Source: a virus. Taken from it: 33,572 nucleotides of DNA. Of this stretch, positions 7,426-27,400 are shown piece after piece. Every line of letters starts with the position of its first letter. Position 1 is the first letter of the stretch. The notes beneath the pieces are model-generated. The model did not search any database. It was not told the DNA's origin and saw only the letters and a list, made by a program, of their open reading frames with translations. The stretch spans positions 1-33,572 of IMG/VR virus record IMGVR_UViG_3300042312_000122. The stretch is one strand, 5' to 3'. The position numbers were made by a program, and so were the translations under genes.

Positions 7426-7456
7426 AAAAAAGACCCGGAAACGTCCGGGTTTTTTC
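7426..7456 (+). terminator. Rho-independent terminator after the late operon
   Basis: Stem ACCCGGA/TCCGGGT with an AACG loop, flanked by an A run on the left and a T run on the right. It closes the left-hand late operon and insulates it from the accessory promoter about 30 bases downstream. Confidence 0.9.
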
Positions 7457-7484
7457 TTGCGTCAAAAAAATATTTTCAAAAATA

Positions 7485-7515
7485 TTTGTTGAAACCAAAA
7501 GTTCATGTATATTTG
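7485..7515 (+). promoter_or_regulatory. Bacteroidota-type promoter P1
   Basis: A TTTG at 7485-7488 is followed after exactly 19 bases by TATATTTG at 7508-7515, matching the Bacteroidota -33/-7 consensus. The surrounding 43 bases are closely copied at P2 (8200-8242), including TTTTCAAAAATATTTG. It sits between a terminator and a CAA-rich leader, so the start of the next gene is the ATG at 7547 and not one upstream. Confidence 0.85.
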
Positions 7516-7546
7516 TGCCATCAAACAACAACAAAAATTCAAAACC

Positions 7547-7762
7547 ATGTCAAACACAACATCAACAACAATCGAAATTTTCGGACATTCAATTGAGGCA
7601 TTCACAACATTAGACGCCGCATGGAACGCATCGGTTCCAAACGGATTTTGGGGAACCGGTTCATATTTGAGCAACGGTCCATTGTGGATTGTAATGTCAG
7701 AAAATCACCCGGTTTATTTGCAGATTTTAGAGGCAAAAAATGAATGGAAATTGGTTTTATAA
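7547..7762 (+). CDS. Small accessory protein, unknown function
   Basis: This is the first gene of the accessory region. The start at 7547 is chosen because promoter P1 lies at 7485-7515, so an earlier in-frame ATG would precede the transcript. The product has 71 residues: a Thr/Ser-rich N-terminus, then IEIFGHSIEAFTTLDAAW and FWGTGSYLSNGPLWIVM. It has no signal peptide or membrane segment. I do not recognise it. The layout (own strong promoter, small protein, no structural neighbours) suggests an early gene that acts on the host, but this is inference. Confidence 0.6.
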   Translation: MSNTTSTTIEIFGHSIEAFTTLDAAWNASVPNGFWGTGSYLSNGPLWIVMSENHPVYLQILEAKNEWKLVL

Positions 7763-7768
7763 ATAATT

Positions 7769-7801
7769 CAACCGGGGGCGCGACCGGTCAACGCGCATTC
7801 A
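7769..7801. repeat. Intergenic hairpin repeat element, copy 1
   Basis: This 33-base element matches 8469-8501 at 30 positions. The core is GCGCG, nine bases, CGCGC, which can form a stem-loop, followed by ATTCA. It lies seven bases after a stop codon and about 40 before the next start, and is followed by an A/C-rich leader. No T run follows, so it is not a simple terminator. It may be an RNA processing, stability or attenuation element. Confidence 0.75.
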
Positions 7802-7843
7802 TTACAACATCAACCAGGCAAACGCCACAAAAACAACAACCAC

Positions 7844-8140
7844 ATGAAAAACACAATCAACCACAACGGAATCGAAGTCATCAACCTGGAATCAATCCGT
7901 TCGTCAAAGTATGAAGACACCGTCGAACGTTTGGGCGAACATTCCGACACATGTTTCGTTTGCGGAAAACGAACCGCCCAAAAAACTTTCGTTCATTACA
8001 CGGTCGAAGGGTATTTGATTCCGGCCGACATCGACGAAACGGAATTGCAATTTCGAAACCTGGAATCACAGGGTTGTTTTCCGATTGGTTCGGAATGTGC
8101 GAAGAAAGTTGGCAGACAATTTTTGATTGAAGAAAAATAA
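7844..8140 (+). CDS. Small Cys-rich, possibly zinc-binding protein
   Basis: The gene encodes 98 residues. CFVCGKRT in the middle and CFPIGSECAKK near the C-terminus supply four cysteines in a C-x-x-C ... C ... C layout suited to a zinc knuckle. Small proteins ending in a GSECAKK-like segment are frequent in Bacteroidota phages, to my knowledge without assigned function. The gene follows hairpin element copy 1 and ends just before a terminator, so the unit P1, gene, hairpin, gene, terminator is complete. Confidence 0.65.
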   Translation: MKNTINHNGIEVINLESIRSSKYEDTVERLGEHSDTCFVCGKRTAQKTFVHYTVEGYLIPADIDETELQFRNLESQGCFPIGSECAKKVGRQFLIEEK

Positions 8141-8146
8141 AAATCA

Positions 8147-8172
8147 ACCGGGCGATGGCCCGGTTTTTTTTT
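8147..8172 (+). terminator. Rho-independent terminator between accessory units
   Basis: Perfect 7-bp stem ACCGGGC/GCCCGGT with a GATG loop, followed by nine T. It begins six bases after the stop of the preceding gene and separates the two accessory units. Confidence 0.92.
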
Positions 8173-8211
8173 GCCCAACACACCCATGTTGAAAAACTTT
8201 TTTCAAAAATA

Positions 8212-8242
8212 TTTGTGGAAACGAAAAACGCGTGTATATTTG
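8212..8242 (+). promoter_or_regulatory. Bacteroidota-type promoter P2
   Basis: TTTG at 8212-8215, a 19-base spacer, then TATATTTG at 8235-8242. The upstream TTTTCAAAAATATTTG is identical to that of P1, indicating a duplicated promoter or shared regulation. The inverted CAAA/TTTG around the -33 element is a candidate operator. Confidence 0.85.
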
Positions 8243-8274
8243 CCAACACAAAACAACAACAAATTTTTTTTCCC

Positions 8275-8466
8275 ATGGAAATGAACACAACCCAATTGAT
8301 TGAAAAGGCCGCAGAATTGGCCAACAATCCATCTTCGATTTTTTGCGCCAATCAGGCAAAGCAAATTTCCTCAATTGAGAGAAGCGCCAAAATGTGGGCG
8401 TTGAAATCAATTGCCCATTCAGTTGGGATTTTTCATCCAATATATGTTTCCAACGATTGGAAATAA
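8275..8466 (+). CDS. Small accessory protein, unknown function
   Basis: The start at 8275 lies downstream of promoter P2. The next in-frame ATG at 8281 is an alternative. The protein has 63 residues, mostly helical (TTQLIEKAAELANN, then QAKQISSIERSAKMWALKSI), with a short C-terminal tail. No recognised domain. It takes the same position in its unit as the 71-residue protein at 7547, and is likewise followed by the GCGCG hairpin element, but the two proteins are not similar. Confidence 0.55.
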   Translation: MEMNTTQLIEKAAELANNPSSIFCANQAKQISSIERSAKMWALKSIAHSVGIFHPIYVSNDWK

Positions 8467-8468
8467 AC

Positions 8469-8501
8469 CAACCAGGGGCGCGACCTGTTAACGCGCATTC
8501 A
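8469..8501. repeat. Intergenic hairpin repeat element, copy 2
   Basis: This is the second copy of the 33-base element at 7769-7801, with three substitutions that leave the GCGCG/CGCGC stem intact. It starts just after the stop at 8466 and leads into a CAACAACAACAA leader and the start at 8531. Preservation of the stem with changes mostly in the loop supports selection for RNA structure. Confidence 0.75.
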
Positions 8502-8530
8502 CAACAACAACAATCAAAAATCAAAATCAA

Positions 8531-9031
8531 ATGTTCAAAATCACAATTTACAACATGAAGAATGGCGGCGGATTCCGCACATTGGAATTCAGCGAACCCA
8601 AAACCGCCATGTCGCATTTCCGCGAACACATGGACGCCCACAACATCAATGATTGTCATTTTTACGATGACGGATTCAATTTGTGGTTGGCAGACGAAAA
8701 CGCCACCGGTGAATTCATGGTCATGGCCGCCGGAAATATTTTGGACGATGTCCGAATTGAGTTGACCGCCGAAAAAACGTTTTCCCGGATTCAGGAAAAC
8801 GATATCGCCAACATCGACCGCGTCAAAGGGAAATTGTATCAATTGGGCGCTCGCCTGGTTGCCATCAATGATGACGTTCACATGGAGTTTTGGCAATTTG
8901 AAAACCGAATGTTCATCATTCAAAGGACCGGAGAACAATTCCAATTGTATTGTTCAATGGAATTCAATTCGATGGATTCAGCATTCCGCCAAATCGAAAA
9001 CCTTTGTCGAATTCAAACATTCATGGCATGA
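8531..9031 (+). CDS. Hypothetical protein of the accessory operon
   Basis: This 166-residue protein opens with a strand-helix unit (MFKITIYNMKNGGGFRTLEF, then TAMSHFREHMDAHN). Two similar alpha/beta halves may be present, the second around FENRMFIIQRTGEQFQLYCS and ending in a helix. I do not recognise the family. It lies downstream of hairpin element copy 2 and shares an ATGA overlap with the next gene, so translation is probably coupled. It is likely transcribed from P2. Confidence 0.6.
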   Translation: MFKITIYNMKNGGGFRTLEFSEPKTAMSHFREHMDAHNINDCHFYDDGFNLWLADENATGEFMVMAAGNILDDVRIELTAEKTFSRIQENDIANIDRVKGKLYQLGARLVAINDDVHMEFWQFENRMFIIQRTGEQFQLYCSMEFNSMDSAFRQIENLCRIQTFMA

Positions 9032-9876: not shown

Positions 9877-9894
9877 GTTTTCAATGTATATTTG
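9864..9894 (+). promoter_or_regulatory. Bacteroidota-type promoter P3 for the recombination/replication operon
   Basis: ATTG at 9864-9867, a 19-base spacer and TATATTTG at 9887-9894. The -33 element lies within the last codons of the preceding gene. The transcript would have a short CAACAACAACA leader ahead of the start at 9918. Confidence 0.75.
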
Positions 9895-10832: not shown

Positions 10833-10951
10833 TTGTAATCGCCATTTTTTTGGTCGCCATCGGATTGATTGGGACCATTGACGCCATTATTCAAACAAAC
10901 CGTTATAAAAACAAATACGACCGAAACGATGACACAGAACCAATGGATTGA
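10829..10951 (+). CDS. 40-residue single-span membrane protein
   Basis: A short gene starts in an ATGA overlap with recT and overlaps the following gene by 23 bases. The product begins with a hydrophobic segment (MIVIAIFLVAIGLIGTIDAI) and ends in a charged tail (RYKNKYDRNDDTEPMD), so a one-span inner-membrane protein with a cytoplasmic tail is likely. The function is unknown. Coupling between recT and DNA-binding genes makes a chance frame less likely. Confidence 0.6.
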   Translation: MIVIAIFLVAIGLIGTIDAIIQTNRYKNKYDRNDDTEPMD

Positions 10952-11330
10952 CCCTTTAGATGTCCAAACCGCCATCAAACGAAAATTCCGCACAATCCGC
11001 AATTTTTGCGATTCATCAGGAATTAAATATCACGTTATGACCAACGCCATCACCGGGCGTTTGTCATCACCCCGTTCACAGGATGTGTTGAACAAAGCCA
11101 AAAAACAAATCGCTGAATGTGAGTTGTTGCCATGTGTTTGGTGTATTGACAACGAACAACGGTCATTTGTGAAAAAAGCCGTGAAAAACAGGTTTGGAAC
11201 CTTGCAAAACTTTTGCAAAAGCCATCCGGAATTCACGTTGACTTTTGTCCACAACGTCATTGCCGGAAAACGCAAAAGATTTGACGACCGGGTGTTGGCA
11301 TTGATTGACGTATTGAACCAAACCACATGA
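10929..11330 (+). CDS. DNA-binding-like protein with two tandem repeat domains
   Basis: The start at 10929 gives 133 residues. Two similar units are visible: about 13-61 (IKRKFRTIRNFCDSSGIKYH, then VMTNAITGRLSS) and 81-130 (VKNRFGTLQNFCKSHPEFTL, then FVHNVIAGKRKR). Each has a basic helix, an NFC motif, a helix and a G-[RK]-x-[RS] turn, followed by a closing helix. This pattern fits a lambda-repressor-like or Cro-like helix-turn-helix. A linker with CVWCIDNE joins them. A regulator or origin-binding role is inferred. It overlaps the initiator gene by 4 bases. Confidence 0.6.
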   Translation: MTQNQWIDPLDVQTAIKRKFRTIRNFCDSSGIKYHVMTNAITGRLSSPRSQDVLNKAKKQIAECELLPCVWCIDNEQRSFVKKAVKNRFGTLQNFCKSHPEFTLTFVHNVIAGKRKRFDDRVLALIDVLNQTT

Positions 11331-22643: not shown

Positions 22644-24430
22644 AATCACCCATTGTCATCAAATTAAACGGAACCGTCATCACCGGTCGAATTGATGGCG
22701 TTGAACAATTCAACGTCACATGGCGTGAAAACGATGACGACGGCGGATTGGCGAAATCTTATTCGTCCGAATTGCGATTTTACGATGACGGTTATTCGAT
22801 ATTGAAACCAATATTGATTGACAACATAAATGGATTCATAAACACGGTTGATGTCCAAATTTTCGATGAATGTTGTGGACGTTTAGTTTTCGATGGCGTC
22901 ATTCGAGGCGATGGAATTGATTGGTGTGAACCGGACTGTTGGATTTCTGCCAACGTAGTTGAACGAAAGTCCGCGTTGAATTGTGTGAAATCAACATTGT
23001 TGACAGACAACCACAACGGTTTCATGAACCAACAACAAAAAAAGGTTCGATATTGTGTGGACATCCGCCCGGATTTCATTTTGCCTGTTTTGCTTTTGAT
23101 TTTTGCAGTTTTGAATACGGTGATTTACACCGTGTTGATTCCATTGTCCGCCGTTGTTGTTGTTATTCAATCAATCGCGTTTGTGGTTTGCGTTGTGGTT
23201 TGTGCCGTTTCGCCTGGTTGCACATTGGCGGATTGCCAGGGCGGAACATGGACAAATCCAACCGGGGCGTTTTCAGAAATCACCGGATGGTTTACCGATT
23301 TGCGAAATCGTTTAATTCAATGCCAATGGTATCACCCGACCGCATTGGTTCGCGATTATGTTCAAAATGTCTGCGAGAAATGCGGATTGACATTTCAATC
23401 GTCCATTCTGAATGACCCGGCATCACCTTATTTCAACCTGTTATTGTTTTCGGCGCCAATCCGCAAAGGATACAAGCCATCGGAAACAAACGGACTTTTG
23501 ATGTCAGAAAACACACCAATTGAAACATTGGACACATTGATGACCAACCATTTGAATCCAATTTTCAACGCTAAATATTGGATTGTGGGCAACACATTGG
23601 TTTTTGAACGAAAGGATTTCTTCAATGGAACATCGATATGGATTGACGCCGAACAAATGTTGTTGGATGGCAGAATCATTGAAAATCAAATTTGTTTGTC
23701 ATATATTGACCGTGAACGTCCGGCGTTTGCAGAATATAAATATTCACCGGATGGTTCGGATTTGATTGGCAATGAAGCGGCCGAACGATATGAAGATATT
23801 GTGGAATGGAATTCACCGCCATCGGACGCACAATCCGGTTCGCTCGATTTGTTGTTATTGTCTTCAATGGCCCGTTTTCGTGACGATGGCGCCGGTCCTG
23901 ACCCATTGGGACAATACAACACCGGATTGTTCAACGCCCTGTTTGGAAATGCCATCGCCAATTCGCGTGATTTGTTAATGATGAACCAACACACGGCGTT
24001 CAATTACAAATTCATGATTTGGGACGCGACATCCGGTTTGGACAATGCAAGAATCAAACGCGATTATTCGAGCGGATTCACGGGCGGAAATGTCATTGGA
24101 ACATATTTTCAACCAATCACAGGCGGAAACACCTGGTTTGAAAATGTTCCGTTGTCGCCAACAAAATTGTTCAATTATCCAATGTTTTTCAATGAAAACA
24201 ACGCAAATAATCTTTATACGTTGTTTCATTTTATTGACAATCCGCGTTTGGCCGGAAATAAGATGTTCAATTTCAATTTTACGTTTGGTTTTGACTGCGG
24301 CGAATTTGATGACATTGATTTTTCAAAATCAATTCGTCTGCGAGTTGGAAACAATATTAAATTTGGAGAAATCAAAGAATTGCAAATTGATTTCGTGAAA
24401 CGGACCATTGGCGTTTCGGGAATCGTTTAA
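22640..24430 (+). CDS. Distal tail/baseplate protein with an internal hydrophobic hairpin
   Basis: The 596-residue protein directly follows the tape measure, where distal tail and hub proteins lie. The N-terminal 110 residues are beta-rich (IVIKLNGTVITGRIDGVEQF), as in baseplate hub domains. Residues about 146-192 are almost entirely hydrophobic (FILPVLLLIFAVLNTVIYTV, then IPLSAVVVVIQSIAF), bounded by Cys residues, unusual for a soluble tail protein. The remainder is a large beta-rich domain. Roles as hub or membrane-penetrating tail component are inferred from position and from the hydrophobic insert. I recognise no lysozyme motif. Confidence 0.65.
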   Translation: MKSPIVIKLNGTVITGRIDGVEQFNVTWRENDDDGGLAKSYSSELRFYDDGYSILKPILIDNINGFINTVDVQIFDECCGRLVFDGVIRGDGIDWCEPDCWISANVVERKSALNCVKSTLLTDNHNGFMNQQQKKVRYCVDIRPDFILPVLLLIFAVLNTVIYTVLIPLSAVVVVIQSIAFVVCVVVCAVSPGCTLADCQGGTWTNPTGAFSEITGWFTDLRNRLIQCQWYHPTALVRDYVQNVCEKCGLTFQSSILNDPASPYFNLLLFSAPIRKGYKPSETNGLLMSENTPIETLDTLMTNHLNPIFNAKYWIVGNTLVFERKDFFNGTSIWIDAEQMLLDGRIIENQICLSYIDRERPAFAEYKYSPDGSDLIGNEAAERYEDIVEWNSPPSDAQSGSLDLLLLSSMARFRDDGAGPDPLGQYNTGLFNALFGNAIANSRDLLMMNQHTAFNYKFMIWDATSGLDNARIKRDYSSGFTGGNVIGTYFQPITGGNTWFENVPLSPTKLFNYPMFFNENNANNLYTLFHFIDNPRLAGNKMFNFNFTFGFDCGEFDDIDFSKSIRLRVGNNIKFGEIKELQIDFVKRTIGVSGIV

Positions 24431-24441
24431 AAATATAAAGA

Positions 24442-27400
24442 ATGGCAATCCATAGAATTGATATTGTTTCCGGATTGTTTCCGGATTCAATCGCGACAAA
24501 TCGTTTGTTATGTTGTGAAGGTTGTCAAACCGCAATTGTGACATTTGAAAATGTTCACAATTCCGATTTAAACATCACAAATTTTGTAATCAATGACGCC
24601 GGAACGGGAACCGCCTGGACAATTACATCCATAAATGGTTCGCCGCCATCATTCCCGTTTTTCATTGCGGAAGGCGACACCTTTACAATGGACATTGAAA
24701 TTTGCTATGACGGCGTCACCGACCCGTTGGGAACACCAACCGCCTATTTTGTCACGGTAGAACACGGAAATGATGCGTCATGGTTGTTTGAGATAGGATG
24801 CAATGACTTAAATCCATTTATCAACGATTTTGTTTTCACGTTTACCGACATTCCCGTTGGAACAACATCAGTACAATATATTGGATTTAATAATTACACC
24901 ATTGGCGCCATATCATTAAAAGTTGAAGTTTCGGGTTGTGGCTCAACATTGCCAATTTCCAATTCAATCACAATTCCGGCATTTTCGACGGGTTTGATTC
25001 CTTTGGAATGGACCCCAACGAGCGCTTCCGACACTTTGAGTTGTACAACTTACATTTATTCGGACAATTGCTCAAGTGATTCGGTGATTGAAATAATTGG
25101 AAACGCGATTGCCGCCGATTGTGAATGTCTTTGTTGTTTGAACATTGAAATTCAAACAGACCAAAATTATTTGAATGCGGATGGCGGATTTTGTATTCCT
25201 GACAATGTTTATTCAAAGTCCGCATTTTTGGACAAAAAAACCGTTGTGTTTTCAATGAAATATGACCCCGGATTGGTCACGGGTTTTCGCTTGCAGTTCA
25301 ACCCGGCGTTGTTCGGACTTGAATGTATTTCGCCGTTCGAAGGAAACAATACTTTGCCCGTTGGATATTTTATTCAATACTTATCAGGGGCGCACCCCGA
25401 CGGAACGCCGCAACCAATGGTTTTGAATGGAGCCGGTTCAAATGCTTTGAATCTTAAAAATTGGGAGGTGTTTTTTCGTCCAACGGATGCAATCGCCGGA
25501 GAATTCAATGTTGAATTCACCTTTTACATGACTCAAGATTTCGAACAATTTTTGACCAATATCACATTCGACAATGACCCCAAATTAAAACGAAATACAT
25601 TTTCATCACCAACAAATTGGGACAACACATTTCCATCGGTTTATAATTCAATAAAATCTTTACAGGCGGCGTTTCATGTAACTGACCCGGCCACCCTGGT
25701 TGGCGATTCACCCTTTCGATGTGGAATTTTGACATGTTCATCATTCACCGGACGATTTTACAATTTAGGATTGAACAATGGTCCGTCCGAATTCACGAAT
25801 CCTGTTTTCGCATTAACCCGAACCAATGGAACCGTGACCAACTTTTCGACCATCGAAACAACCGAAGTCAAATTTTCGATTGATGTTCCGGTCATTTATG
25901 GCGCCGCACGTCCAACGATTGTTTTCCATTTGTTTGATATTAACGCCACCAACAACACGGTTGATTTTTTGGCCGCGTCGGATTCTTCAAGATTTACAAC
26001 CGCAGTTTTGCCGGGGACCGGTGTTTTGGACAATCATTTGGTTCGCCCTGGAACATTGGGAACGGTTGGCGGCGATTGGGCCGCGTCGTTGCATGTCGGA
26101 ACAACCGTAAATCCGTCGACAACTTATCGAATGGCCGCCATCGTTTATGGTTCCGCCGGCGAAATGGTCAACACGTTTTTGTCGGAGCCAATCACGGTGA
26201 CGACATTACCGGACATGGATTGTGATTGTCATCCGGAAATCACATCTACATTCAATCAGTATTGGCAGAAAACAAGCGCGGATTGTTTTCGTCCGGTTGG
26301 CAAAGAACGAATCGGACATCAATTGATTTTGGACCCCGGCGATTTTGACGATTGTTTGTCAAATTGGGGTTTTGAAATTGACGATTGGAGAAGCGTTTTG
26401 GCCAACGTCCGATTGAACATATACAAAAGAACCGAAGATTTCCCAAATCCGGGCAAAACAACGTTTTTTCAATACGAATCACATTTGTCCGTTCGCAACA
26501 ACGCGTTTTTGGGAAATTACCAAAATTTTGGTGATTTGATTGTGGCAGAATCCGGACCAACTCAAATTGTGACATTCATCAACAATCGCCGCGTCCGCTT
26601 TGACAACACGTTGTTTTCGGGCGGCCAAATATTAACGGCCAATACATCAACATATATGAACCGTGTTCCGGCCGGACCAATTGGCGGAATCTACGTTTCG
26701 ACATTGAATGTTTTGGACACCTGGATAAATAATGACATATTTTTTGAATATGTTTTGACATTTGATTTGACCGCTTATGTTGGCCAACCCTTTTTGTGGA
26801 ATGTAGTGAAAGCGTTCAAAGTAAACGCGATTGATTTTGAACCAATCAATTCCGGATTCGAACAAATGTTGTTTGATGTGACGTTTGAAGGTTTGGACCC
26901 TGTGACGGGTGTTTATGTTACAATTGAAGAACCAATTTGTTTTTCCGATTGGTCCGCAGTTCGTTTGACATATCAATCCGACCGCGAAGGCAATTTCTTA
27001 TTTTTCATTGAACCGGAACCGTTTGGTTTGCCGGTTCTGCAAGAAAACGACGAAATGGTTGGAGCCAATCAAATGACACAATTGTCATCGCCATTGGTGT
27101 TGTCAATGGACACATCGTTTGACCCCGTTACATTTCAAGCGTCCGTAATTTTGGACGCGCCACAATTTGAGAACAAAACATATCGTTTTTGCGGATATAT
27201 TTCAACGCCTGAAGAACCGGCCATTTGCGAATATTTTGTTTTCCATGCAAAAACCGCAGGTTCGCCAACCATCATTGTTCCAACGCCACAAGTTGGAAAT
27301 ACATACACCGGAACATTCAATTCGACGCCATTTGCCGCGTCGTTGACAATGAGAACCTCAAACGGTACAACACTTTATCCATTGCCTGGAGAAACATATG

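Follow-up and report, generated by a model that had tools for sequence, protein, structure and literature searches.

A compact predicted RNA pseudoknot that follows exchangeable early or accessory genes of phages, with a putative role in message protection

Why would a phage genome carry, one behind the other, two cassettes built from the same regulatory parts around two small genes that have nothing in common? The question is raised by a viral record of 33,572 nucleotides (IMG/VR record IMGVR_UViG_3300042312_000122; this whole stretch of 33.6 kb is called here the window), in which genes for a tape-measure protein (TMP_3) and for RecT are present and the promoters are of the Bacteroidota type. 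A preliminary description of this DNA had claimed that the two promoters share one upstream block and its spacing, that each of the two unrelated small genes is followed by a nearly identical 33-base element and, in consequence, that the region is a modular slot in which regulatory parts are kept and coding parts are not. These claims are borne out: both promoters contain the same 16 bases, TTTTCAAAAATATTTG (7473-7488 and 8200-8215), with the same spacing, the elements at 7769-7801 and 8469-8501 agree in 30 of their 33 bases, and the proteins of 71 and 63 residues, compared directly, bear no relation to each other. For neither of the two, which the preliminary description supposed to be early proteins that act on the host, was a homolog found in Pfam, PHROG or the phage collection. 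The region is organized as follows.

7433..7459, + strand: intrinsic-terminator-like hairpin (ACCCGGA/TCCGGGT) with a T-run, 5' of P1, read directly in the sequence
7473..7515, + strand: predicted promoter P1, with the 16-base block TTTTCAAAAATATTTG at 7473-7488, TTTG at 7485 and TATATTTG at 7508
7547..7762, + strand: slot 1 gene, 71 aa
7772..7796, + strand: predicted pseudoknot 1, 9 nt past the stop of the slot 1 gene
7797..7843, + strand: A/C-rich leader of ORF B, unstructured as judged from its sequence
7844..8140, + strand: ORF B, 98 aa
8147..8172, + strand: intrinsic-terminator-like hairpin (ACCGGGC/GCCCGGT) with T9, between the two cassettes, recognized by eye
8200..8242, + strand: predicted promoter P2, of the same type and spacing as P1, with the 16-base block at 8200-8215
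8275..8466, + strand: slot 2 gene, 63 aa
8473..8496, + strand: predicted pseudoknot 2, 6 nt past the stop of the slot 2 gene
8497..8530, + strand: A-rich leader of ORF D, kept in all relatives
8531..9031, + strand: ORF D, 166 aa, the gene that stays constant and marks the slot in relatives

Both promoters contain TTTG-N19-TATATTTG, an exact fit to the sigma-ABfr consensus of Bacteroidota, TTTG/TAnnTTTG, in which TTTG lies at about -33 and TAnnTTTG at -7 (PMC7366714). The consensus by itself is not above chance (3 matches for 1.4 expected); the full promoter blocks, 7465-7515 and 8192-8242, are 84% identical over 51 nt, and the P2 block is conserved at 92-99% across five relatives. P1 and P2 are predicted to be sigma-ABfr promoters, and from their type we infer a Bacteroidota host for this phage. 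The terminator-like hairpins have counterparts as well, since an equivalent of the one upstream of P1 is kept 5' of the P2-type promoters in four relatives (L556-L559) and the one between the cassettes is conserved in another, L030. A third TATATTTG -7 box, with no clear TTTG -33 box, lies at 9887-9894 ahead of the RecT gene (9918) and is followed by the same CAACAACAAC leader.

How exchangeable are the contents of the slots? L030 shares about 84% overall identity with the window and has other small genes in both slots, with an unrelated 63-aa gene where slot 1 of the window has its 71-aa gene. Identity is 98.8% over the 503 bp that follow the slot 1 gene (pseudoknot 1, ORF B and P2) and 96.8% beyond the slot 2 gene, pseudoknot 2 included. 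For slot 2, five relatives were picked by the ORF D protein alone and the window was added; in these six genomes (five of them at 97-99% identity) five different small genes are found between P2 and ORF D, belonging to five unrelated kinds of 50-82 aa. The layout of the cassettes is thus conserved among relatives for slot 2, and for slot 1 in the window and L030 only. The element itself is not the fixed part of the cassette that it was supposed to be: in L557 and L558 the slot gene has been swapped and no element follows it, so the element is not essential. The ending varies along with the small gene: the element closes slot 2 as CAGG/CCTG in the window and in L030 (the latter with two G in the first loop) and as TCAG/CTGA in L559; in L556 the same place (2942-2975) is taken by the GC-rich CGGGGGCCGTCGCATCCATAACGCGG, which is not a canonical pseudoknot and is perhaps another type of ending. 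In short, slot genes often end in the pseudoknot but can do without it.

Is the element then the hairpin for which it was first taken? Its core, of about 25 nt, is predicted to form an H-type pseudoknot, a known fold, and not a simple hairpin, with the consensus [NNRG]-GG-[GYGCG]-A-[CYNN]-NYAA-[CGCRC], in which two stems (S1 and S2) are connected by three loops (L1 to L3). The two copies of the window are read as follows.

7772-7775/7784-7787, + strand: S1 of pseudoknot 1 (CCGG/CCGG), with L1 GG at 7776-7777
7778-7782/7792-7796, + strand: S2 of pseudoknot 1 (GCGCG/CGCGC), with L2 A at 7783 and L3 TCAA at 7788-7791
8473-8476/8484-8487, + strand: S1 of pseudoknot 2 (CAGG/CCTG), with L1 G at 8477
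8478-8482/8492-8496, + strand: S2 of pseudoknot 2, with L2 A at 8483 and L3 TTAA at 8488-8491

At up to 3 mismatches, the core is matched twice in the window and in none of 100 shuffles. Folding into single (nested) hairpins returns only the second stem, with no unusual stability, which is what is expected of a pseudoknot. In an alignment of core matches made by eye, S1 changes on both sides together, and two scans left the S1 positions free, one of them freeing also the second S2 pair. Among the matches listed in the S1-unconstrained scan, at least three of the four S1 pairs are formed in 77 of 80 sequences, and the fully paired ones comprise 12 different S1 sequences; among those listed for the freed S2 pair (110 further sequences), it is T-A in 101 and A-T in 4, where the other sequences have C-G. 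The pairing at S1-1, S1-2 and S2-2 lies beyond all 2000 shuffles and at S1-3 beyond all or nearly all of them (0-4 of 2000), and a fifth S1 pair is at chance level, which sets S1 at exactly 4 bp. S1 varies even inside one homologous slot, as the TCAG/CTGA of L559 against CAGG/CCTG illustrates. Since a scan with an altered central S2 pair gave no convincing copies, this pair looks invariant, and the constancy of the first and last two S2 pairs and of the GG, A and AA loops was set by the search patterns. As a control, S1 pairing is absent in 118 of the 120 core matches listed from bacterial genomes; these are GC-rich chance matches, and among the matches listed an element of host genomes was rejected as an explanation, although rare host copies may exist. 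Two knotted stems, both with compensatory changes, would place the element in the H-type pseudoknot fold class, and it is almost certainly a real and conserved pseudoknot family. Its RNA nature is suggested by orientation, position and covariation together; a count of wobble pairs by strand, 15 G-U and 10 A-C (p=0.42), does not single out the sense RNA as the strand that folds.

The element is private neither to the two cassettes nor to this phage group, and copies are found in many unrelated phages. More than 200 distinct copies come from IMG/VR and from cultured phages whose hosts are Mycobacterium, Corynebacterium and E. coli, with Fishburne, Godines, PSonyx and phi92 among the carriers: a search of IMG/VR with the core led to 46 contigs of very different GC content, and BLAST with a 35-mer led to 148 records of cultured phages, mostly mycobacteriophages together with some Corynebacterium and Escherichia phages. 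These counts are of the matches listed, the IMG/VR copies were mostly fetched by pattern, and the sequences are not independent. In many loci, a second covarying H-type pseudoknot lies just 5' of the first, at up to 130 nt (L007, L008, L289, L366 and L588, among others), as in CGCC-C-GGATGG-GGCG-AATA-CCATCC or with other stems such as GGCC/GGCC plus GGGTGG/CCACCC and ACGG/CCGT plus GGGTGA/TCACCC. Neither the element nor this tandem partner, which shows no Rfam relation, belongs to a family of Rfam 15, as no covariance-model match was obtained for the window region and 19 loci. A search of open-access papers with the strings of the element returned only unrelated primer-type strings, and a search by topic, also in open-access papers, found no description of the element, its variants or its tandem partner. 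No named RNA family or system that we know of combines such a sequence with such a position and range, and we regard the element as a new class of RNA in phages, with a putative function.

Where does the element stand with respect to genes? Of 197 copies, 176 have the end of an ORF (20 aa or longer) in the 40 nt on their 5' side, and about 10% have no clear ORF end just upstream. The gap from the stop codon to S1 has a median of 8 nt and is usually of 5-12 nt, with an abrupt onset at 5 nt (46 of 197 copies at 5 nt and 40 at 6, as opposed to 2 at 4 nt, with a background of about 9). Downstream, the usual feature is a start codon after an A/C-rich leader of 15-40 nt, although other neighbours exist: the next feature is a tRNA-Asn gene in L334, the element lies between tRNA-Thr and tRNA-Arg in L269, a tRNA follows at about 85 nt in L442, the end of the tRNA cluster of phage phi92 carries a copy (L550), and the gene downstream is convergent in L443, L450 and L463. 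With such neighbours, the element is not tied to a downstream protein gene, nor is it tied to one gene family, since there are 128 protein clusters among 185 upstream genes and 90 among 181 downstream genes. The upstream genes are mostly unknowns, with SSB, RusA and HNH among the few named (one SSB-like gene has the element in 8 of 8 homologs, all of them close relatives), and the downstream ones include Lar restriction-alleviation, methyltransferase, Acb2/Tad1-like, WhiB, Erf, RecT and HNH genes. With Lar, methyltransferase, Acb2/Tad1-like, Erf and RecT genes among those downstream, this is plausibly the region of early or accessory functions in phage genomes and not the structural one. When loci are compared in pairs, S1 goes with the upstream gene at 0.67 and with the downstream gene at 0.52, a small difference. 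As far as can be read from the sequences, the element is an undescribed RNA, widespread in phages, which marks where exchangeable early or accessory genes end.

From what the sequences display (a pseudoknot with compensatory changes in both stems, its placement after the stop codon and the replacement of the genes), we infer a mechanism. The reading we favour, to which we give a probability of roughly 0.4, is that the pseudoknot ends small early or accessory genes that are exchanged among phages and is a stable junction protecting the 3' ends of their messages. Inside a polycistronic message, the fold would halt 3'-to-5' exonucleases (or decay of other kinds, or read-in) where the upstream gene ends, so that each small gene would have a protected 3' end of its own without a full transcription terminator, and the A/C-rich leader past the pseudoknot would stay open for the next start codon. 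The minimum clearance would correspond to the few free bases that the ribosome needs to finish at the stop codon, and a newly acquired gene with a pseudoknot ending would bring its own message stability to any operon. A block to decay or read-in explains the fixed fold, the clearance from the stop, the indifference to what lies downstream, the portability with small genes and the tandem copies, which, as back-ups, fit a mechanical block. A narrower version is possible, albeit doubtful: that these are minimal exoribonuclease-blocking pseudoknots, a shared set, often in tandem, of portable 3' ends for phage accessory genes and tRNAs across several host phyla. They might then be the counterpart of the xrRNAs of flavi- and plant viruses, whose compact pseudoknots lie in 3' regions and frequently stand one behind the other; the element is likewise compact, 3' of genes and found in tandem, and differs in its bacterial hosts, with no relation in sequence expected.

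The distance to the stop codon also lends itself to a reading on the translation side, in which the pseudoknot, sitting at the mRNA entry channel when a ribosome terminates, would block scanning or read-in or slow release and thereby uncouple the translation of the small gene from that of the next gene. The 5-12 nt resemble the 6-9 nt that separate the H-type frameshift and readthrough pseudoknots of RNA viruses from the decoding site (PMC3835772). Moreover, when the homologs of one downstream gene were chosen by protein alone, the element was present in 45 of 79 and absent in 34, and in the latter the next start often overlaps or adjoins the upstream stop. Nevertheless, there is no downstream translation to insulate between the tRNAs of L269 or before the convergent neighbours of L443, L450 and L463, and the translation of a neighbouring ORF cannot be the purpose of copies that lie next to or between phage tRNA genes; this reading is rather improbable.

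A role on the transcription side has a similarly low probability. The nascent pseudoknot would act on RNA polymerase or on Rho, either by antitermination or by shielding the C/A-rich stretch past the stop; in actinophages the stretch after the element is indeed C/A-rich and G-poor, as Rho sites are, and both RNA polymerase and Rho are conserved enough to account for a range across phyla. However, copies lie inside operons, often several in a row, unlike the known antitermination RNAs, such as HK022 put, which are larger and promoter-proximal. An intrinsic terminator was discarded because in the copies read the element is followed by an A/C- or A/T-rich leader and by no direct T-run that would code for a U-run.

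Less probable than these is an operator to which a phage protein would bind, spreading over the leader and repressing the next gene. The model for it is the gene 32 mRNA of T4, T2 and RB69, whose gp32 operator is also a short H-type pseudoknot in a phage message followed by an unstructured A-rich stretch, and the order of pseudoknot, A-rich leader and start codon is the same as in T4, where the pseudoknot sits 67 nt upstream of one gene (PMC3014915). SSB, Erf or RecT genes are, in addition, among the adjacent genes. The element, in contrast, is found 5-12 nt past the stop codons of numerous unrelated genes, its phages have hosts from several phyla, and a tRNA can come after it; no protein common to all carriers was found. 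With 90 downstream clusters and with tRNA or convergent genes downstream, there is no common downstream gene, and the location does not match that of an operator of the gene 32 type.

On a par with the operator in its low probability is a site acting at the DNA level, that is, a single-stranded DNA fold for recombination, either attC-like or an annealing anchor of the RecT type. The attC sites of integrons are structured, lie just 3' of the stop of small exchangeable genes and keep structure over sequence; the element also stands just 3' of the stop of exchanged genes, conserves S1 in pairing and not in sequence and, in the window, has a RecT gene 1.4 kb away. Homology breaks at 85% of the element junctions and at 55% of other junctions of the same loci, with mostly the upstream side replaced, although the compared pairs were chosen by the element and depend on one another, and a conserved element would in part be expected to coincide with such breaks. 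That homology is more often kept downstream than upstream would also fit a role as a 5' leader, as would the small difference in the linkage of S1, and both count against a protection of 3' ends. Against a DNA site, the slot genes of L557 and L558 were swapped without the element, a homology anchor would keep sequence and not pairing and, unlike in integrons, there is a pseudoknotted second stem and no integrase among the window proteins scanned.

A ligand-binding riboswitch aptamer is very improbable: small H-type pseudoknots can be aptamers, as in SAM-V, preQ1 and guanidine-III, but the element is 3' of genes with no common downstream pathway and no expression platform seen. A stop-codon readthrough signal, for which the spacing of retroviral readthrough pseudoknots (PMC3835772) and the in-frame next ORF of slot 1 would speak, has a negligible probability and was rejected, as the downstream frame is random (36/37/41), a further stop occurs in 17 of 36 in-frame cases, the stops are TAA in 102 of 142 and the next ORF of slot 2 is out of frame, so that the readthrough frame and the stop-codon signature of recoding pseudoknots are both missing.

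What would such an element mean for phage biology? A 25-nt fold that is absent from Rfam 15 and is kept by phages of actinobacteria, of E. coli and (by promoter type) of Bacteroidota suggests a general, undescribed step in phage gene expression. As it marks the 3' ends of small exchanged genes, it could serve as a finder for accessory and counter-defence genes in unannotated viral DNA. Should the exonuclease block be true, the element would be a minimal natural RNA stabilizer; as a portable 3' end, it would explain how such genes can function in any new location; and as a recombination site, it would explain the precise gene swapping in phage mosaics.

The element is accompanied by related forms. 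IMG/VR contigs contain the variant GG [GAGCG] CA ... NYAA [CGCTC], and Corynebacterium phage PSonyx contains a variant with longer loops; in the stretch 40001-80277 of this phage (L648), on the minus strand at about 21.0-23.8 kb of the locus, a pseudoknot of the canonical or the GAGCG type is found at several successive junctions of accessory genes. In L007, L008 and L024, the tandem pseudoknots are preceded on their 5' side by a hairpin, CTACAGAAAAACAGTTTTCTCTGTAG, and by more structured sequence, with no ORF end nearby, and this region is possibly a non-coding RNA. In PSonyx, strings resembling the 3' half of a tRNA (GGGGGTTCGATTCCCCC...CAGGCAC) follow the coding sequences 24157-24546 and 10866-11141 (L648, minus strand) and are possibly tRNA remnants or attachment sites.
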